Positions 40,706 to 50,530 of a stretch of 64,000 nucleotides of DNA are shown in pieces (within the stretch, counting starts at the first letter, position 1; each line of letters begins with the position of its first letter). Source of the stretch: a bacterium. Its GTDB lineage: Bacteria; Sysuimicrobiota; Sysuimicrobiia; Sysuimicrobiales; Segetimicrobiaceae. The notes beneath the pieces are model-generated. The model was given only the letters and a program-made list of their open reading frames with translations. It had not been told where the DNA came from and did no database searches. The translations under genes and the position numbers were made by a program. The DNA lies in assembly GCA_035307765.1 (NCBI GenBank), contig DATGHU010000032.1, positions 62,001 through 126,000 on the forward strand. The letters are read 5' to 3'.

Positions 40706-41923
40706 CTATTCGTATCTAAGCGCCACGATGGGATCCAATGCCGCCGCCCGCTGCGCCGGATAGAATCCAAAGACCACCCCGATCAGCGCGGCCGATGTGA
40801 ACCCCAGCACCATCGAAAACGGGGAGATGAGCACCGGCCAGTGCGCCAGCGTTGAAGCGCCCTGGGCGGTGGCGAGCCCCATCGCGATCCCGATCAGCCC
40901 CCCGACGGACGCCAAGGTCAGGGCCTCGACAAGAAACTGGAGGAGGATGTCGCGTCCCTTCGCCCCCACCGCCATGCGCAGTCCGATTTCGCGCGTCCGT
41001 TCGGTGACGGAGACGAGCATGATGTTCATGATGCCGATCCCCCCCACCACCAGTGAGACGACCGCGATCCCCGCGAGCAGCAGTCCCTGGGTCTGTGACG
41101 TGGCGATCCGGACCTGTTGCACGTCGGAGATGTTACGCACGGAGAAGTCGTCGGGCTGCAGCGGTGTGAGGTGATGCCGGATCCGCAGCAGCCGTTCGGT
41201 CGCGTCGATCACCCCCGCCACCGTGTCCGGGGTCGTGGCGGAGATGAGGATGTTCTGGACGTACGTCACGCCGGTCAGGCGGGCCTGCAGCGTGCTGATC
41301 GGCACCTCCACCAGGTCGTCCTGATCGCGGCCGAACCCCGACTGGCCCTTGGACGTGAGGACCCCGACCACGAGGAAGGGTACGTTCTTGATGACCACCG
41401 TGGCCCCGATCGCCCCACCGGCGGGAAAGAGGTTCTCGGCGACCGTACTGCCGAGGACGGCGACCTTCGCCGCCTGGTCCACCTCGCCGGAGGTGAAGAA
41501 CCGCCCCTGGGCCACACTCCAACTCCGCACCGTCTGCCAGGCCGGGGTGCTGCCGCCGATTGAGGTGGACCAGTTCAGACCGCCGGCGACCACCTGCCCG
41601 CTCGTCTGCGACGACGGGGCCGCCGCCGCGACCTCGGGGACCAGCCGGCCGATGGCCGTCACGTCATCGAGTTTGAGGGAGGTCCGCGTCCCCGATCCGA
41701 GGCTCACCCCCCCGCTCGTGATGGCGCCCGGAACGACGACGACCAGATTGGCACCGAGGCTCTCGATCTGTGCCAGCACGGCCGCCTGCGCGCCCGAGCC
41801 GATGGCCATCGAGGTGATGACCGCGCCCACCCCGATGATGATGCCCAACATCGTCAGAAACGAACGCGCCGCGTTGCGGCGGAGCGCCTGCCAAGCGACC
41901 CGCAGGAGCACTGAGACGTTCAT
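40706..41923 (-). CDS. macB: MacB-type ABC transporter permease
   Basis: MacB/FtsX-like permease of 405 residues, encoded without the fused ATPase. TM1 (about 20-42, with FLTMLGIIIGVGAVITSMAI) is followed by a periplasmic domain of about 220 residues and three C-terminal TMs. MNIMLVSVTERTREIGLRMA and the C-terminal PAQRAAALDPIVALRYE are diagnostic. ATG 41923 overlaps the ATPase stop by 4 nt. With the ATPase, fusion protein and TolC of the same operon it forms a tripartite efflux machine. Confidence 0.93.
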   Translation of the reverse strand: MNVSVLLRVAWQALRRNAARSFLTMLGIIIGVGAVITSMAIGSGAQAAVLAQIESLGANLVVVVPGAITSGGVSLGSGTRTSLKLDDVTAIGRLVPEVAAAAPSSQTSGQVVAGGLNWSTSIGGSTPAWQTVRSWSVAQGRFFTSGEVDQAAKVAVLGSTVAENLFPAGGAIGATVVIKNVPFLVVGVLTSKGQSGFGRDQDDLVEVPISTLQARLTGVTYVQNILISATTPDTVAGVIDATERLLRIRHHLTPLQPDDFSVRNISDVQQVRIATSQTQGLLLAGIAVVSLVVGGIGIMNIMLVSVTERTREIGLRMAVGAKGRDILLQFLVEALTLASVGGLIGIAMGLATAQGASTLAHWPVLISPFSMVLGFTSAALIGVVFGFYPAQRAAALDPIVALRYE

Positions 41924-42708
41924 GCGCGCGCCTCCCCCGCGGCGGCCACGGCCGCCGCCTTGGCCGACCCCGTGGCAACGTCCTCCGGGGATCGATCCTC
42001 CGTCACCACACCGTCCTTGAAGACCACCACGCGCTTCGACCAGGCGGCAACGGCGATATCGTGCGTCACTACGACGACGGTAATCCCGTGCTCGCCGTTG
42101 AGGCGCCGGAAGAGCTCCATGATTTCACCGCTGCTCGCGCTGTCGAGGTTACCGGTCGGCTCGTCGGCCATGAGGAGCGGGGGGTCGTTCGCGAGCGCGC
42201 GGGCGATAGCCACGCGCTGCTGCTGCCCGCCGGAGAGTTCGCTCGGGCGATGGTCCAACCGGGTCCCCAGCCCGACGCTCTCCAGCAGCGCGCGGGCGCG
42301 CCGCATCCGCTCTTCGCGCGCAATGCCGGCGTAGAGCATCGGCAGTTCGACGTTCTCCAGGGCCGTCGTGCGGGCGAGCAGGTTGAAACTCTGAAAGACG
42401 AATCCGATCCGGGTATTCCGGATGGTCGCCAGTTGGTCGCGCGACAGGCGCGAGACCTCGACGCCGGCGAGCCGGTACGACCCCGCCGTCGGGCGGTCCA
42501 GGCACCCCAGCAGGTGCATGAACGTCGACTTGCCGGAGCCCGACGGGCCCATGATCGCCACGAACTCCCCCTGCCGGATGGAGAGGCTGACGCCCCGCAG
42601 GGCCTGGACCTCCGTGGTGCCCTCCCCGTAGATCTTCGTCAGGTCTTGGACCTCGATGAGGGGATCCCCCGCCGGCGCACCGCCGCGCACTGCGGCGCCC
42701 TCCCTCAT
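41920..42708 (-). CDS. MacB/LolD-type ABC ATPase
   Basis: ABC ATPase of 262 residues. Walker A GPSGSGKSTFMHLLGCLDRP, signature LSGGQQQRVAIARALAND, Walker B LLMADEPTGNLDS and switch VVVTHDIAVAAWS are canonical for the MacB/LolD/FtsE mechanotransmission family. It powers the separate permease encoded immediately downstream, with 4-nt overlaps at both ends. Confidence 0.94.
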   Translation of the reverse strand: MREGAAVRGGAPAGDPLIEVQDLTKIYGEGTTEVQALRGVSLSIRQGEFVAIMGPSGSGKSTFMHLLGCLDRPTAGSYRLAGVEVSRLSRDQLATIRNTRIGFVFQSFNLLARTTALENVELPMLYAGIAREERMRRARALLESVGLGTRLDHRPSELSGGQQQRVAIARALANDPPLLMADEPTGNLDSASSGEIMELFRRLNGEHGITVVVVTHDIAVAAWSKRVVVFKDGVVTEDRSPEDVATGSAKAAAVAAAGEARA

Positions 42709-44186
42709 GGACCGACCCGGCCGCCACCCGACCCGCCGCCGGGGGTCTGGCCGCCCCTCGCCCCCCCGCGGACTTGGGCGATGATCACAGCATCGCCGGC
42801 GCGGAGGGTTCCCTTCGTGATCTCCACGTTCTGACCGTCGGAAAGGCCGATGACGACGGACACGGGGCTGGGCCGGCCATTGCGCAGCGCCCAGACGGTC
42901 ACCTGTGATCCGGGAGCGCCGGCGACCGGCGTCGCGGCGGGGGCGGCCCCGGACGGGGCGAACCCACCGCTGGGCGCCGCCGGGGGAGCGCCGGCCGCTC
43001 TGAGCGGACGATACAGCAGCGCGGCGAGCGGGACCGCGAGCACGTGGGTGCGCTTGGCGATATCGATCGTGATCTGCGCCGTCATCCCCGGCAACAGCCG
43101 CCCCGAGGAATCGTGCACGATCACCACCGCATCGTAGGTGACCACGTTCTGGACGACCGTGGGATTCACCCGCACCTGCTGCACGGTGCCGGCGAACACC
43201 ACGTTCGGGAACGCCGTGACGGAGATGTGCGCCGCTTCCCCATCGCGCACGTTGCCGACGTCTGCCTCGTCGACGGAGGTGTCCACCTGCATGTCCGTCA
43301 GATTGGTGGCCAGCGTGAAGAGGGTTGGGGTCTGAAAGGACGCCGCCACGGTCTGCCCCACGCTGACGTTCCGCGCCATCACCACCCCGTCGATCGGGCT
43401 GGTGATGATCGTCCGGGAAAGGTTGTACTGTGCCTGTTGCAGCTGCGCGGCTGAGGACGCGATCTGGTGCTGCGACGTCGCGGCCTGCGCCTGCGAGGTC
43501 GTCACCTGCGTCTGCGCGGTCCGCACCTGGCTCGCCGCCGCGTCGACCTGGGCCTGCGCGACGCCGACCGCGGCCTCGGCGGCACGCGTGTCTTCGGCGT
43601 TGGTCGCGGCCGCGGTGCGGTCCGTATCCATCTGGTTCTGGGGGATGAACCCCTGCTGGAGCAGCGACGCGTCGCGGCTCACGGTCAGGGCGGAGAGGGT
43701 GACCTGCGCCCGGGCCTTCGTCACGTTCGCCTGGGCGCTCCGGAGATTCGCCTGCGCTTGCCGGAGGTTCGCCGCCGCCGTCTGCACCGCGTCCCGGGCC
43801 TGCTGGATCGCGCTTTGCGTCGAGGCGGCGGTGGACTGTGCCGCCGCCAGGTTGGCGCTCGACTGCTCCATGGCCGCCTGGAATGTGGTCGGGTCGAGGG
43901 TCGCCAGTACCTCCCCCTTGGTGACCTTTGAGTTGTAGTCCACGTTGAGCGTGGCGATGGTCCCGGACACCTGGCTGCCGACCTGGACCTGCGTCACGGG
44001 GTTGACCGTGCCCGTCTCGTTGACCGTCGCCGCGATGTCCGCGTAGCCCACGGGGCGCGTGATGTAGCGCACGGTGGCGCGGCGGACGGTGAGGCGTTGG
44101 TACCCCCAGACCGCCCCGCCGATGAGCGCGATGATGACGATGGCGGTGAGGACCGCACGGCGGCCGCGTCCGGATGTGTGTGTCAT
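42705..44186 (-). CDS. MacA-like membrane fusion protein
   Basis: Periplasmic adaptor of 493 residues. An N-terminal TM (about 10-28) is followed by lipoyl halves (VNPVTQVQVGSQVSGTIATL and ITSPIDGVVMARNVSVGQTV), a long Ala/Gln coiled coil (about 100-260), a beta-barrel domain and a membrane-proximal domain. A Pro/Ala-rich insert at about 400-440 is unusual. It bridges the MacB-type permease and the TolC-type channel. Start and stop both overlap neighbours by 4 nt. Confidence 0.92.
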   Translation of the reverse strand: MTHTSGRGRRAVLTAIVIIALIGGAVWGYQRLTVRRATVRYITRPVGYADIAATVNETGTVNPVTQVQVGSQVSGTIATLNVDYNSKVTKGEVLATLDPTTFQAAMEQSSANLAAAQSTAASTQSAIQQARDAVQTAAANLRQAQANLRSAQANVTKARAQVTLSALTVSRDASLLQQGFIPQNQMDTDRTAAATNAEDTRAAEAAVGVAQAQVDAAASQVRTAQTQVTTSQAQAATSQHQIASSAAQLQQAQYNLSRTIITSPIDGVVMARNVSVGQTVAASFQTPTLFTLATNLTDMQVDTSVDEADVGNVRDGEAAHISVTAFPNVVFAGTVQQVRVNPTVVQNVVTYDAVVIVHDSSGRLLPGMTAQITIDIAKRTHVLAVPLAALLYRPLRAAGAPPAAPSGGFAPSGAAPAATPVAGAPGSQVTVWALRNGRPSPVSVVIGLSDGQNVEITKGTLRAGDAVIIAQVRGGARGGQTPGGGSGGGRVGP

Positions 44187-45547
44187 TGACTGCCTCCTAG
44201 GGTGCTGCCCTGAATCGGCATCCCCACCGCGTGCTGCAGGGTCGCCAGCGCGGTCTGGTACGTATACTGGGCGGTGACGGCATTGACGTCGGCCTGCGCC
44301 GCCGTCGCCCGCGCCGTGATCACCTCGACGATCGTCCCGACCCCTGTGCGGTAGCGGCCCTCGGCAACGCGCAGCGCCTCATCGGCCGCGTCCCGCGCCA
44401 CCTGCGTGGCCGTCACTGCCGCGCTGTCCTGCACGGCGGCCAAATACGATTGGTAGGCGTCCTGCCGGACCGACAGGCGGGCCGCGGTGAGCTGTGCCTG
44501 GGCGCTGAGCAGGGTGGCCTCCGCCCCAGCGATTTCGGCCTTGCCTTTGCCCGCGTCATACAGCGGCAGGCTCACGGTGGCCGTCACGCCGTAGGACGTC
44601 GAGTTATTGAGCACCGGGCTCGTGCTGAACGGCGTGTAGGTTGCGCCTACCCCGACGTCCACCTGGGGACCCGCGGACACGTGCGCCAGATCCAGGGCGG
44701 CTTGATTGGACGCGACGGCCGCCTGCGCCTTGGCCACCTCCGGGCGGTTCGCCTCGGCCGAAGTCATCACCGCGTCGGCCGACACCGTCACCGCCAGCGG
44801 CGGGGGCGGCGGGGGCTGCACCTCGACCGGCGTGGCCGCGTCCATGCCGATCGCCCCCTGGAGGCCGGCTTTCGAGGTGGCGATCTGGGAGCGCGCCTGC
44901 AGGAGGTTCACCTGCGCCTGCGCCACCTGCGCCTGCACCTGGATCACGTCGGACTGCGCGGCGACCCCAGCCCGGACCTGGGCCTGGGAGAGCGCGAGTT
45001 GAGCCTGCGCCTGCGCGAGCAGCGCCTCCTGGACCGTGGTGAGCTGTTCCGCCTGCAACACGCTGAAGAAGGCCGTGGCCACCGACAGCGCGGTATCTTG
45101 CGTCGTCTGGCGCAGCGCGGCTTCGGCGGAGGACAGCGCGGCGCGGGCGGTCTCCACGGCCGCCCGCGTGCGGCCGCCGTCGTACAGCGGCAGGTTGGCG
45201 GTGAGGGAGACCGACCCGGTCCCGCTGAGATTCCCCGGAGCCGACGACGACCCCGACGCAAATGTTCCCCCGGTCGCGCTCCCGTATGTCCCCGTGCCGT
45301 CCGCCGACACCGTGGGCGCAAACCCTGCCTGGGCGACCACGATGCCCTGCTGGGCCGCCGCGACCGCCTGCTGCGCCGCCGTCACCTGGGGGTTGCGCGT
45401 CAAGGCCTCCTGCAGGGCCTGCGCCAGCGTGAGCCCCGACGTTGCAGGCGAACCCGGCTGGGCGGCCAGTCCAGCCTGTGGGCCGAGCGCCAAGCACGCG
45501 CCCAACGCGACGACTCCTATGATCGATACAACGGATCGCTGGGTCAT
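44183..45547 (-). CDS. TolC-family outer-membrane efflux channel
   Basis: Outer-membrane efflux protein of 454 residues with a signal peptide (about 1-29). Two repeats of the TolC/OEP domain are visible: ALTRNPQVTAAQQAVAAAQQ and AEANRPEVAKAQAAVASNQA, plus the beta-strand SLPLYDAGKGKAEI and LPLYDGGRTRAAV regions. Its presence shows that the organism has an outer membrane. It lies between the histidine kinase and the fusion protein genes with 4-nt overlaps on both sides. Confidence 0.92.
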   Translation of the reverse strand: MTQRSVVSIIGVVALGACLALGPQAGLAAQPGSPATSGLTLAQALQEALTRNPQVTAAQQAVAAAQQGIVVAQAGFAPTVSADGTGTYGSATGGTFASGSSSAPGNLSGTGSVSLTANLPLYDGGRTRAAVETARAALSSAEAALRQTTQDTALSVATAFFSVLQAEQLTTVQEALLAQAQAQLALSQAQVRAGVAAQSDVIQVQAQVAQAQVNLLQARSQIATSKAGLQGAIGMDAATPVEVQPPPPPPLAVTVSADAVMTSAEANRPEVAKAQAAVASNQAALDLAHVSAGPQVDVGVGATYTPFSTSPVLNNSTSYGVTATVSLPLYDAGKGKAEIAGAEATLLSAQAQLTAARLSVRQDAYQSYLAAVQDSAAVTATQVARDAADEALRVAEGRYRTGVGTIVEVITARATAAQADVNAVTAQYTYQTALATLQHAVGMPIQGSTLGGSQ

Positions 45548-46698
45548 GACCCCTCCTGAGCGTGTTTGGGGAGCGTCACCGTGAAGACGCTGCCGGTCCC
45601 CGGCGCGCTCTCCACTCCGACCTGCCCGCCGTGCGCTTCGACGAGCGACTTCACGATCGCCAAACCCATCCCGGTACCCCCACTGGTTCGGGTGCGCGAT
45701 TCATCCGCCCGATAGAAGTGATCGAAGATATGCGCGAGGTCCTCGGCGCGGATCCCGCTGCCGGTGTCGGAGACCACCAGGTGAATTCCTTCCCCGTTGC
45801 CGTCCCGCAGCCCGATGCGCACCTCCCCACCCGCCGGGGTATGGCGCAGCGCGTTTTCCACCAGGTTCTGCACCACCTGCCGCAGGCGGTCGGGGTCGGC
45901 CTGGATCTCCGGCAGGGGTCCCGGCACCTCAATCCGCAGGGCGATGGTCCGCTCGTCGGCGAGCGGCGCGAGGGCTTCCACGGTTTCCCGCACCACCCCG
46001 CCGACGTCGGTCGTCCGGCGGTGCAGCTCCAGCTGGCCCGCCTGGGCCAGCGATAGATCGCGCAGATCCGTGATGAGGCGTTTGAGCAGCACCGCCTGGC
46101 TGTGCAGACCCGCGATCCGCTCGGGGGTCGGCTCGATGACATGGTCCAGCATCCCTTCGAGCGTCCCCTGAATCACCGAGAGCGGCGTGCGCAGCTCATG
46201 GGCGATCCCGGCGAAAAGGCGCCGGCGCTGTGTCTCCTGCTCGGCGAGTTGAGAGGCCATCCGGTTGAACGCATGGCCCAACTCCGCGAGCTCGTCCCGG
46301 CCGGTCACCGGCACGAGCGGCGGAACCCCGCCCCCCGCGATGACCCGGGTCGCCTGCGTCAAGATGACCACCGGCTTCACGATGCGGCTGCCCAGCCACA
46401 GCGCCACCAGGACGCCCACCCCGGAGGCCACGAGCGTGCCGCCCCAGATCGCGTTTCGGAAGCGGCTCTCGAACAGGATCTCCCGCGGCCCGAATGGCCG
46501 CCGTGGGCCCGAGGCGGGCTCCGGCGACACGGCCGCGCCTCCCGCCGCGGAGAGGCCGCGGCCGCGCTCCTGGTCCCGCTCGACGTACTGCCGGAAGATC
46601 AACCGGGCCTGGTAGCTGGCAAAGGTGGCGGTCAGCACGGTCGTGAGCAGCGCCGTTCCAATGAACGCCGCGCTGAGTCTCGCCCTCACGCTACGCAT
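45544..46698 (-). CDS. Sensor histidine kinase
   Basis: Membrane histidine kinase of 384 residues. TM1 (about 9-27) and TM2 (about 85-103) flank a short extracytoplasmic loop of about 55 residues. A HAMP domain (about 104-158), the phospho-acceptor His167 in FAGIAHELRTPL, the N box NLVENALRHTP, and G boxes SDTGSGI and GGTGMGLAI follow. It is the partner of the upstream response regulator (8-nt overlap). The short loop suggests that it senses a membrane or envelope stress rather than a large ligand. Confidence 0.94.
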   Translation of the reverse strand: MRSVRARLSAAFIGTALLTTVLTATFASYQARLIFRQYVERDQERGRGLSAAGGAAVSPEPASGPRRPFGPREILFESRFRNAIWGGTLVASGVGVLVALWLGSRIVKPVVILTQATRVIAGGGVPPLVPVTGRDELAELGHAFNRMASQLAEQETQRRRLFAGIAHELRTPLSVIQGTLEGMLDHVIEPTPERIAGLHSQAVLLKRLITDLRDLSLAQAGQLELHRRTTDVGGVVRETVEALAPLADERTIALRIEVPGPLPEIQADPDRLRQVVQNLVENALRHTPAGGEVRIGLRDGNGEGIHLVVSDTGSGIRAEDLAHIFDHFYRADESRTRTSGGTGMGLAIVKSLVEAHGGQVGVESAPGTGSVFTVTLPKHAQEGS

Positions 46699-47395
46699 GG
46701 CGATCGTTCACCATATGAAACTTGTACCCAACCCCGTACACCGTCAGGATATAGCAGGGGTTCTTGGGGTCGGGTTCCACCTTGCCCCGCAGGTTCTTAA
46801 TGTGCGCGTCCACCGTACGTTCATACCCCTCGAAGGCGTGCCCCTGGACCCGGTCGATCAGCTGCATCCGGGTGAAGACCTGGTTGGGATGGCCGGCCAG
46901 AATTTCGAGCAGCCGGAACTCCGTCGGGGTCAGGTCGACGCGCCGCCCCTCCAGGGTCACTTCGTGCGCGCGCAGGTCGATCACCAGGTCGCCGGCCCGC
47001 ACCACCTCGACCGTCTCCCGGCTGCCGCGGCGCAGTACCGCGCGCACCCGCGCAACGACCTCGCGCGGGCTGAAAGGCTTGGTGATGTAGTCGTCGGCGC
47101 CGAGCTCCAGCCCGAGGAGCTTATCGCTCTCCTCGTCGCGGGCGGTGAGCATGATGATCGGGGTCTGCCCGGTCTCGCGAAGCCGGCGGCAGACCTCCCG
47201 GCCGTCGAGCTTCGGGAGCATCAGATCCAGAACGATCAGGTCCGGCCGGAGGCGGGCACAGGCGGCCAGCGCCGCCTCGCCGTCGACCGCCTGATCGACG
47301 TCGAACCCATCCCGCTGCAGATACGAGCGCAGGAGGTCGACGATCTGTGGCTCATCATCAACGACAAGGATGCGCGGCATCGTGGCCTCAGGCAA
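46691..47395 (-). CDS. OmpR/PhoB family response regulator
   Basis: Response regulator of 234 residues. The receiver domain has Asp57 (LIVLDLMLPKLDG) as phospho-acceptor, and the ITKPFSPREV lysine is in place. A winged-helix DNA-binding domain follows (about 130-230: LTPTEFRLLEILAGHPNQ, VDAHIKNLRGKVE, VYGVGYKF). It overlaps both neighbours (SHOCT protein and kinase) by 8 nt. The direct repeats upstream of the operon are a likely binding site. Confidence 0.95.
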   Translation of the reverse strand: MPEATMPRILVVDDEPQIVDLLRSYLQRDGFDVDQAVDGEAALAACARLRPDLIVLDLMLPKLDGREVCRRLRETGQTPIIMLTARDEESDKLLGLELGADDYITKPFSPREVVARVRAVLRRGSRETVEVVRAGDLVIDLRAHEVTLEGRRVDLTPTEFRLLEILAGHPNQVFTRMQLIDRVQGHAFEGYERTVDAHIKNLRGKVEPDPKNPCYILTVYGVGYKFHMVNDRHA

Positions 47396-47702
47396 GCGTC
47401 CCCAGGCGCTTGAGGTACTCGTCCTCGGCGATCTCGCCCCGCGCGTACCGCTCGCGCAGGATCTGCCTCGCCCCGTCCGGACGCGACCACAGCGAGCGGG
47501 TCAGGAGCGCCCGCCAGACCAGCAGCAGCAGGCCGATCCCCAGCAGGCCGCGGAGCAGCAGGAACAGCCCGAACACCCCGGCGCGTGGCCCGAACGGATG
47601 CGGACCAAACGCATGCAGACGCGCCCCCTGGGCCAGCGCCGGAAGCGCGAGCCCCAAGACCAGGGCGCCCGCGAGCATCAACGGATGAAGCCGTCTACGC
47701 AT
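47388..47702 (-). CDS. Small membrane protein with C-terminal SHOCT domain
   Basis: First gene of the operon, 104 residues. A signal or TM segment (about 9-25) and a second TM (about 45-62, GVFGLFLLLRGLLGIGLLLL) precede a C-terminal SHOCT-like helix pair (ARQILRERYARGEIAEDEYL). ATG 47702 is chosen because GGAGG ends 8 nt upstream; ATG 47720 would fall upstream of the predicted transcript start. Such proteins often accompany two-component operons, possibly modulating the kinase. That role is inferred. Confidence 0.82.
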   Translation of the reverse strand: MRRRLHPLMLAGALVLGLALPALAQGARLHAFGPHPFGPRAGVFGLFLLLRGLLGIGLLLLVWRALLTRSLWSRPDGARQILRERYARGEIAEDEYLKRLGTLA

Positions 47703-47722
47703 CCCACCCACCTCCGTCATAT

Positions 47723-47728
47723 AATGTA
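47723..47728 (-). promoter_or_regulatory. -10 box of the efflux/two-component operon
   Basis: Minus-strand TACATT (47728-47723) lies 21 nt upstream of ATG 47702, leaving room for a short leader with GGAGG. The -35 position (GTAGGT) is poor, as expected for an activator-dependent promoter. TATATG (47723-47718) is an alternative. Confidence 0.45.
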
Positions 47729-47757
47729 CCCTCAGTATGGGCTCGACCTACGAAGAA

Positions 47758-47787
47758 GTTGTGAACCCGTAGTGAAGATGTGGTGAA
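47758..47787 (-). promoter_or_regulatory. Triple 11-bp-spaced repeats, likely response-regulator site
   Basis: On the plus strand GTTGTGAA (47758), GTAGTGAA (47769) and GTGGTGAA (47780) repeat at exactly 11-bp intervals; the minus-strand consensus is TTCACNAC. One-turn-spaced direct repeats are how OmpR/PhoB regulators bind, and the core TTCAC resembles the 11-bp PhoP repeat units of actinobacteria. The array lies about 30-60 bp upstream of the -10 of an operon that encodes an OmpR-type regulator. Confidence 0.7.
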
Positions 47788-47932
47788 TCGGCGGCGTCCG
47801 ACCCTCGCCCCCACTCCCACGCGGCCGAGGCGGCGCGAACCGGCAGACCGACCGCGCGGACGACCCGCGGCGCGACGGCAGGCCGGCTGGTTTCGTTGGG
47901 GGCCTGCCCCGCCGCGGACGAGCCCTCGCCCC

Positions 47933-49024
47933 TCACCGCGTCAGCGTCAACGTCGCGCGGGTCACCCGGCGCTGGTCCGAGTCCTCGAGCGCCTTGCCGA
48001 CGTCGCGGAGCGGGTACTCGGCGTCGAGGAGTGCCTCGAACGGATATCGTTCGCGGGTCGCGCCGAGAAAATCCAGGGCGCGCTTCAGGTACCACGGATG
48101 GTAGCGGATCACCGGAAGGATCTGCACGGCGCGGCGGGTGAGCGCGCCGGGGTCGAACGGCGTCATCTGGCCGGGGGAGATGTTCCCGACTTCCACCACC
48201 CGTCCGCCGGGGTGGACGAGGTGGATCGACTCGGCAAACGCCGCCGGAACGCCGGTGACTTCGACGGCCACGTCCGCCCCCGCCCCGCCGGTGAGGGCGG
48301 CAACCCGTTCCGCGCGGCGCTCGGGCGTTTCGTGCTCGCGGAGGTCGATCACCAGATCGGCCCCGAAGCGGTGGGCGAGCTCCAACCGCCTCGCCACACC
48401 GTCGATGACGATCGTATGCGCGCCGCGCGCTTTGGCGACCGCCAGCGCGCACAGCCCCAGGCCGCCCGCCCCCTGCACGACGACGTGTTCCCCGGATGTC
48501 ACCTTCGCCTGGTCGAGCGCGAACAGCAGCTCCGACAGCGCGCAGTTTGCGCTTGCGGCCGCCGCGTCGGGCACCCCGGCGGGGACGACATAAAAGTACT
48601 GGTCCGGGTGGATGTAGTAGTGCGTGCCGAAGGCCCCGTGGAAGTGCGGAGGGTCGTCGGCCGGTCGAGCCCAGTAGCGGTAGCAGTTGGTGCAGAGGTT
48701 GAACCGTCCGGCCTGACAAGCCGAACATTTGCGACAGGTGATAAAGTACGCGCAGGCCACCCGGTCGCCGGGGTGCACCGGAACCCCGGCAAAGTCCGTG
48801 TCGACCCCGCGGCCGAGCGCGAGCACGCGCCCCAGCATCTCGTGGCCCAGCACGCTGCCCATCTTGACCGTGGGATGATGCCCCCGCCAGATGTGGAGCT
48901 CAGAACCGCAGACGTTGGCGCGAGTCACCTCCAGGAGGATCTCGCCCGGGCCGGGGTCCGCGACCTCGTACTCCCGCAGTTCGGTTCGTCGTGGGGCGAC
49001 CAGGACCACCACCGTGCCGCGCAT
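47933..49024 (-). CDS. Zinc-dependent alcohol dehydrogenase (MDR family)
   Basis: Medium-chain dehydrogenase of 363 residues. The catalytic zinc cysteine is in RANVCGSELHIW with GHEMLG following. The structural zinc lobe is CRKCSACQAGRFNLC, here extended with a further Cys (TNC). The cofactor loop VVVQGAGGLGLCAL ends in an Asp-containing strand (VIDGVARR), favouring NAD. GAGGAGG precedes the ATG. It reads toward, but is separated by about 210 bp from, the efflux operon. Substrate unknown. Confidence 0.9.
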   Translation of the reverse strand: MRGTVVVLVAPRRTELREYEVADPGPGEILLEVTRANVCGSELHIWRGHHPTVKMGSVLGHEMLGRVLALGRGVDTDFAGVPVHPGDRVACAYFITCRKCSACQAGRFNLCTNCYRYWARPADDPPHFHGAFGTHYYIHPDQYFYVVPAGVPDAAAASANCALSELLFALDQAKVTSGEHVVVQGAGGLGLCALAVAKARGAHTIVIDGVARRLELAHRFGADLVIDLREHETPERRAERVAALTGGAGADVAVEVTGVPAAFAESIHLVHPGGRVVEVGNISPGQMTPFDPGALTRRAVQILPVIRYHPWYLKRALDFLGATRERYPFEALLDAEYPLRDVGKALEDSDQRRVTRATLTLTR

Positions 49025-50077: not shown

Positions 50078-50530
50078 ATGAGACTCGGAACATACCGGTT
50101 GGTCGTGTTGGCGGGGGCGGCAGCGGCGGTCGGCCTCGTGGCCGGCACCCCGTTTACCGCCCAGGCCCAGGCGATCACGTGCGCGCCAGGAACGACGGTT
50201 CTGTACCGGGCGGTTGGACCGCAGAGCGCCCCGATGCTGATCCCCGCACAGGTGCACGCCACCATCTGCTCGCAGAACGGCGCCGTGGTGTCGGTTATCC
50301 CGGGGTTCACGACCGTCGGCCCTGCCGGAGCGCCCATGATCATCCCGGTGAACATGCCGGTCAAAACCTGCGTTCCGACGACAACCGCCTCCGTGCCGGT
50401 GGTGGGCGGAGGGTTTACCGCCCCGGTCCAGCTGGTCCAGATCAGCCCCGGCGTGTTTGCGGTCAACCTGGCGACCCCCGCGGCGCCGGTCGTGGTGACG
50501 ACGTTCTCCACGGCGCTCACCTGCTTCTGA
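50078..50530 (+). CDS. Secreted Val/Pro-rich protein of unknown function
   Basis: Exported 150-residue protein with a signal peptide (about 1-31, ending TAQAQA). The mature chain is rich in Val, Pro, Thr and Ala, with few charged residues and four cysteines (first in ITCAPGTTVLY, last in the C-terminal ALTCF), probably disulfide-paired. AGGGGAGG lies before ATG 50078; a TACAAT at about 50023 could be its -10. It precedes the selenoprotein operon by 115 nt. No family recognised. Confidence 0.72.
   Translation: MRLGTYRLVVLAGAAAAVGLVAGTPFTAQAQAITCAPGTTVLYRAVGPQSAPMLIPAQVHATICSQNGAVVSVIPGFTTVGPAGAPMIIPVNMPVKTCVPTTTASVPVVGGGFTAPVQLVQISPGVFAVNLATPAAPVVVTTFSTALTCF

Follow-up and report, generated by a model that had tools for sequence, protein, structure and literature searches.

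A trio of short repeats upstream of an efflux operon was analysed in a stretch of DNA of 64 kb (the window) from a member of the Segetimicrobiaceae, phylum Sysuimicrobiota, and compared across draft genomes. The repeats are a conserved predicted docking site that recurs before the same response regulator and before other cell-envelope genes across Sysuimicrobiota. The box adds a new member to a familiar type of genetic switch. With high probability it is the putative binding site of the response regulator that gene two of the operon encodes; the phosphorylated form of this regulator would bind head to tail and activate its own efflux operon.

The repeat array and its promoter

Three copies of GTNGTGAA stand at an 11-bp pitch and have seven of eight bases in common (Table 1), and the positions and spacing given in a preliminary description of this DNA were confirmed in the sequence. 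Read on the minus strand, in the direction of the operon, the array becomes TTCACCACATC-TTCACTACGGG-TTCACAACTTC-TTCGTAGGTCG, with all units at 11 bp; the degenerate fourth unit (TTCG, 47754-47744) and a conserved -10 hexamer are additions to that description. Unit 3 is the best conserved, being retained in genus g3 and in minimal boxes. A repeat-finding program applied to the short region gave no hits under the settings used, since the units are too short and diverged and their spacers vary.

Table 1. Features of the array, its promoter and operon, and predicted targets elsewhere in the genome.
Feature	Location	Strand	Remarks
GTTGTGAA	47758-47765		repeat copy
GTAGTGAA	47769-47776		repeat copy
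GTGGTGAA	47780-47787		repeat copy
Unit 1, TTCACCACATC	47777..47787	-	about -60 to -50; TTCA invariant in 8/8 family promoters
Unit 2, TTCACTACGGG	47766..47776	-	about -49 to -39; TTCA invariant in 8/8; absent from genus g3
Unit 3, TTCACAACTTC	47755..47765	-	about -38 to -28; extends over the site expected for a -35
Unit 4, degenerate, TTCGTAGGTCG	47744..47754	-	TTCGAA in most relatives
-10 hexamer CATACT, conserved	47734..47739	-	starts 26 bp after the start of unit 3
Small membrane/exported protein, C-terminal SHOCT motif, 104 aa	47388..47702	-	SHOCT E 1.5e-5; orthologues
OmpR/PhoB-type response regulator, presumed box ligand	46691..47380	-	Response_reg 1.6e-32, Trans_reg_C 6.1e-27
HAMP-HisKA-HATPase sensor kinase, BaeS-like	45544..46698	-	8-bp overlap with regulator gene
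TolC-type outer-membrane efflux protein	44183..45547	-
MacA-like periplasmic adaptor (HlyD/MacA-like)	42705..44186	-
MacB-like ABC ATPase	41920..42708	-
MacB-like permease	40706..41923	-	end gene of conserved operon
22-residue membrane peptide	C30		predicted target, E 5e-10
123-residue exported protein	C6		predicted target
Homologous exported proteins, no Pfam match	C40, C35		predicted targets
Two YceI-like proteins	C21, C22		predicted targets; C21 matches PF04264 at 1e-15
Paralogous OmpR-type regulator	C34 (L214, 120138-120169)		predicted target; in-register minimal box before its own gene

No sigma-70 -35/-10 pair was found in 47600-47950. The promoter had previously been credited with a poor -35 box; in fact it has no recognisable -35, and the array overlaps that region. 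On this ground the promoter probably needs an activator, and the position of the array fits activation. In all eight family promoters, bases 2, 4 and 6 of the -10 (A, A, T) are invariant. Counted from the first T of unit 3, the -10-like hexamer of each relative (CATACT, GATACT, TACACT, TACATT) begins 26 bp downstream. More distant boxes hold the same distance with TAGCGT, TAGGCT and TACCCT. Conservation does not extend to the other AT-rich stretch, at 47720-47725, which is closer to the gene. With the hexamer assumed to start at -12, which fixes the promoter numbering, transcription would begin at about 47727. We interpret units 3 and 4 (about -38 and -27) as a replacement for the -35 box, with units 1 and 2 (about -60 and -49) as a second pair.

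The operon and its proposed regulation

The operon encodes, in order, a SHOCT small protein, an OmpR/PhoB-type regulator, a BaeS-like kinase, TolC, a MacA-like adaptor, a MacB-like ATPase and a permease. All seven genes, in unchanged order, are shared with seven related genomes, of which two belong to genus g3, and the upstream neighbours vary; in two more, G008 and G010, the contig breaks within the regulator gene. Both the receiver and the winged-helix Trans_reg_C domain of the regulator score far over the Pfam cut-offs, which establishes the OmpR/PhoB-type membership previously proposed. The SHOCT match of the first protein, at 25 bits, is slightly below the Pfam cut-off of 27. Its gene most likely starts at 47702, with GGAGG 8 nt upstream and as in the orthologues, and not at 47720, the start of the longest ORF.

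In the proposed mechanism, the co-encoded kinase would phosphorylate the response regulator, molecules of which would dock head to tail, one per 11-bp unit, with the core pair on units 3 and 4 and the second pair on units 1 and 2. From units placed on one DNA face and overlapping the missing -35, the bound regulator would recruit RNA polymerase to the -10 box, and positive feedback, that is, activation and not repression, would switch on the SHOCT-regulator-kinase-TolC-MacAB operon. The same system would also turn on a few further genes for exported or envelope proteins. Were the array instead a repression operator, the regulator would block RNA polymerase at its own promoter in negative autoregulation. 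The span of the array, about -60 to -17 of the promoter, is compatible with such occlusion, but a promoter without a recognisable -35 probably needs an activator and the activator-like -10 distance is constant at all boxes, which together make repression improbable.

Recurrence of the box in the genome, the family and the phylum

Within the 64-kb window, TTCACNAC-N3-TTCACNAC with at most two mismatches was found only at the two overlapping places in the array, and shuffled sequences contained a mean of 0.09 such matches, with none of 100 reaching two. Three TTCA(C) units at an 11-bp pitch occur at two places only in the 3.8-Mb genome, namely in the window and at C30:17018-17054. The backwards-read triple-array pattern had no match in the whole genome, a control that is only rough because TTCAC pairs are commoner there than their mirror (138 vs 39). 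Among the matches listed (100 of the 138), ten TTCAC pairs, including those of the window and C30, were spaced at exactly 11 bp; other spacings averaged 3.1, so that pairs at 11 bp are over-represented (Poisson P = 0.0014).

Within the family, the TTCA/TTC columns are invariant in promoters from eight species (15 of 15), compared with 6 of 24 other array columns; outside the array, the invariant columns amount to 1 of 78 upstream and 0 of 78 beyond the -10. Genus g3 has lost units 2 and 4 but retains units 1 and 3, with TACATT still at the 26-bp distance. Lack of conservation before orthologous operons had been named beforehand as evidence that would count against a regulatory role, and the box proved to be conserved there in eight species. 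It is also present on VBAO01000097.1 of Candidatus Segetimicrobium genomatis. A scan of all genomes with the exact pattern TTCAN7TTCACAACTTCTTCG, which is too strict for diverged boxes, returned three contigs only.

A wider search was made with a profile (R1) built from sequence only on ten seeds. Across 43 genomes of the order it matched 62 sites at E<=0.1; half of these, 31, fell below 0.005, the ten seeds included. The mirror-image profile gave one match in the same genomes, at 0.097. In 18 genomes outside the order, R1 gave eight matches, none below E=0.009. The seeds were picked by their repeat pattern, and the independent evidence consists only of the non-seed matches, the contrast between spacers and units, and the -10 register. 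The initial filter of the search passes over some sites, and the box of G015 came only from a local scan.

Across four families of Sysuimicrobiota, most regulators of a single clade have the box in front of their operons. In other families it accompanies the same regulator-kinase pair with different partner genes, and the -10 stays in unchanged register. Some of these box-headed operons carry a Met/Gly-rich exported protein and a SHOCT protein (G012, G033, G021, G041, G037, G029, G039), and others a YceI-like and a second exported protein, named from likeness only (G030, G038). The presence of Met/Gly-rich exported proteins hints at a metal signal; assignment of these proteins as PepSY was dropped, with no Pfam match. 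Operons combining an MMGPGMMG-type Met/Gly-rich exported protein with SHOCT, regulator and kinase genes were observed in other families at L116, L117, L118, L119, L122, L064 and L065.

The regulator tree contains one clade (support 0.946) with a full or minimal box in 25 of its 32 members; of nine regulators outside it, only one has a minimal box. The box labels were assigned by hand from PWM scores and register and are weakest for G020 (15 bits), G027 and G040. Of the other seven clade members, six belong to family f4 and one is ambiguous. No TTCAC box was found in about 3.4 kb scanned upstream of the f4 regulator homologues (L165-L167, L170-L172), which share 59-70% identity with the regulator in the DNA-binding part and a nearly identical recognition-helix core; the operator of f4 may have changed. 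A strict split by recognition helix was rejected, the ERT[VI]DAH[IV]KNLR core occurring also in homologues without an obvious full box, several of which turned out to have minimal boxes. That the box is co-inherited with the regulator and not with the transporter genes is the chief argument for this regulator as its reader. Autoregulation predicts a box before same-clade operons whose other genes differ, and this pattern is seen. The autoregulation suggested earlier is therefore supported, at the level of sequence, both by the box before orthologous operons and by same-clade operons with other partners.

A genome-wide search for the repeats, suggested earlier as a way to find the regulon, yielded the second triple array at C30 and a small predicted regulon (Table 1). 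The further boxes precede exported or envelope genes, and all are in register with a -10. Their scores run from E 5e-10 (C30) to 0.3 (C21), the weakest being candidates only, and the sites at C22 and C34 were taken from an IUPAC pattern. On C30, a 22-codon ORF, MLIGLLLLAGLFMWATGHMVLR, with a ribosome site (L004:5855-5923, minus strand) is preceded by a TTCAC box of four units and followed by a GC-rich stem-loop; its product is possibly a stress-induced membrane peptide. The C40 and C35 proteins (L127, L128; VQGTIQAVDCQ...) have tyrosine/proline-rich segments and in-register boxes, and a relative exists in G009 (L101) too. In the window itself, 50078-50530 encodes an exported Cys-containing protein with no Pfam match, homologues of which in G001 and G004 have an upstream TTCAC box (L107, L092); the window copy shows none.

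The in-register minimal box of the C34 paralogue, TTCATCAAACC-TTCACACGAGG with TAAACT, lies at the promoter of a regulator of the same family, and more than one regulator may read the box. That such a regulator, for example this paralogue, binds the array of the window, or that both do, is nevertheless unlikely: across families the box tracks the clade of the window regulator, other paralogues are without a box, and the recognition helix of the paralogue is DRTIDVHIGKLREK as against ERTVDAHIKNLRGK in the window regulator. A functionless chance cluster, conceivable in that five-base cores are short, is refuted to near certainty by invariance in eight species, in-register recurrence throughout the phylum and clean controls.

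With the window regulator as the favoured ligand, the data lean, if only slightly, towards an undescribed regulon for envelope stress or metals that spans Sysuimicrobiota and is controlled by this regulator clade through a fixed-register box. If so, the regulon box would have units at about -38 and -27 standing in for the -35 and, optionally, further ones at -49 and -60; MacAB-TolC efflux, Met/Gly-rich exported proteins, YceI-like proteins and the 22-residue membrane peptide would be among the targets. Genes whose function is unknown, namely those of SHOCT small proteins, Met/Gly-rich exported proteins and this peptide, would be tied to one envelope/efflux response. A concrete operator, a promoter register and a candidate regulon are offered for a two-component system of a phylum in which hardly any genetics has been done, and operator variants of two to four units at constant -10 distance provide a clean natural series.

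Comparison with known systems

The Pho box of E. coli PhoB stands in for the -35, and the window array consists of tandem 11-bp units near -35, sharing the direct-repeat operator form of PhoB/PhoP. Pho boxes are built of direct 11-nt units with seven conserved and four less conserved positions (PMC4415409). The PhoP of M. tuberculosis, a related regulator, docks on TCACAGC-N4-TCACAGC as a head-to-tail tandem dimer, for which the 4-bp gap between the 7-bp units is strict, and its binding is tighter on three and four units (PMC4832192). In the array, TTCACAAC closely resembles the PhoP units GTTCACC of Streptomyces coelicolor and TCACAGC of M. tuberculosis (PMC4415409, PMC4832192). The resemblance of TTCAC to actinobacterial PhoP units, noted in the preliminary description, stands for the DNA. 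It does not mark the regulator as a PhoP, since the regulator scores 235.5 bits against the PhoB cut-off of 296.2 and is linked to an efflux operon instead of phosphate uptake or phosphatase genes. In our own alignment, anchored on the conserved Leu-Arg, the base-reading residues Asn212, Val213, Glu215, Ser216, Tyr217 and Tyr220 of PhoP (PMC4832192) would correspond to R, T, D, A, H and N in the window regulator. Since these recognition-helix residues differ, the likeness of the DNA units is not explained by shared contacts.

The full-length solved structures closest to the regulator are those of MtrA, RegX3 and BaeR. MtrA is its best sequence match in PDB and NCBIfam, yet at 247.1 bits it falls below the cut-off of 300, and the MtrAB operon of actinobacteria differs from that of the window. 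A literature search for a described TTCAC box of this regulator found nothing usable. In the BaeSR system, which governs envelope stress and efflux in enterobacteria, the regulator binds upstream of the mdtABCD operon, in which a pump and the regulator-kinase pair occur together (PMC7657598). The window operon also joins such a pair to a tripartite pump, for which control by the operon's own regulator is predicted; the pump is MacAB-TolC-like and of the ABC type, whereas that of mdtABCD is RND. BaeS_SmeS is the best match of the window kinase, yet reaches 238.6 of the 500 bits required, and the regulator scores 232.1 against the BaeR cut-off of 380. The BaeR recognition helix is DRTIDSHIKNLRRK, compared with ERTVDAHIKNLRGK here, and the BaeR consensus TTTTTCTCCATDATTGGC (PMC3799227) differs from the window box by inspection. 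Altogether, and by analogy, the system is predicted to act like a PhoB-type activator with an operon logic like that of BaeSR-mdtABCD; it is filed as neither, because the curated cut-offs for PhoB and BaeR/BaeS, like that for MtrA, are missed.
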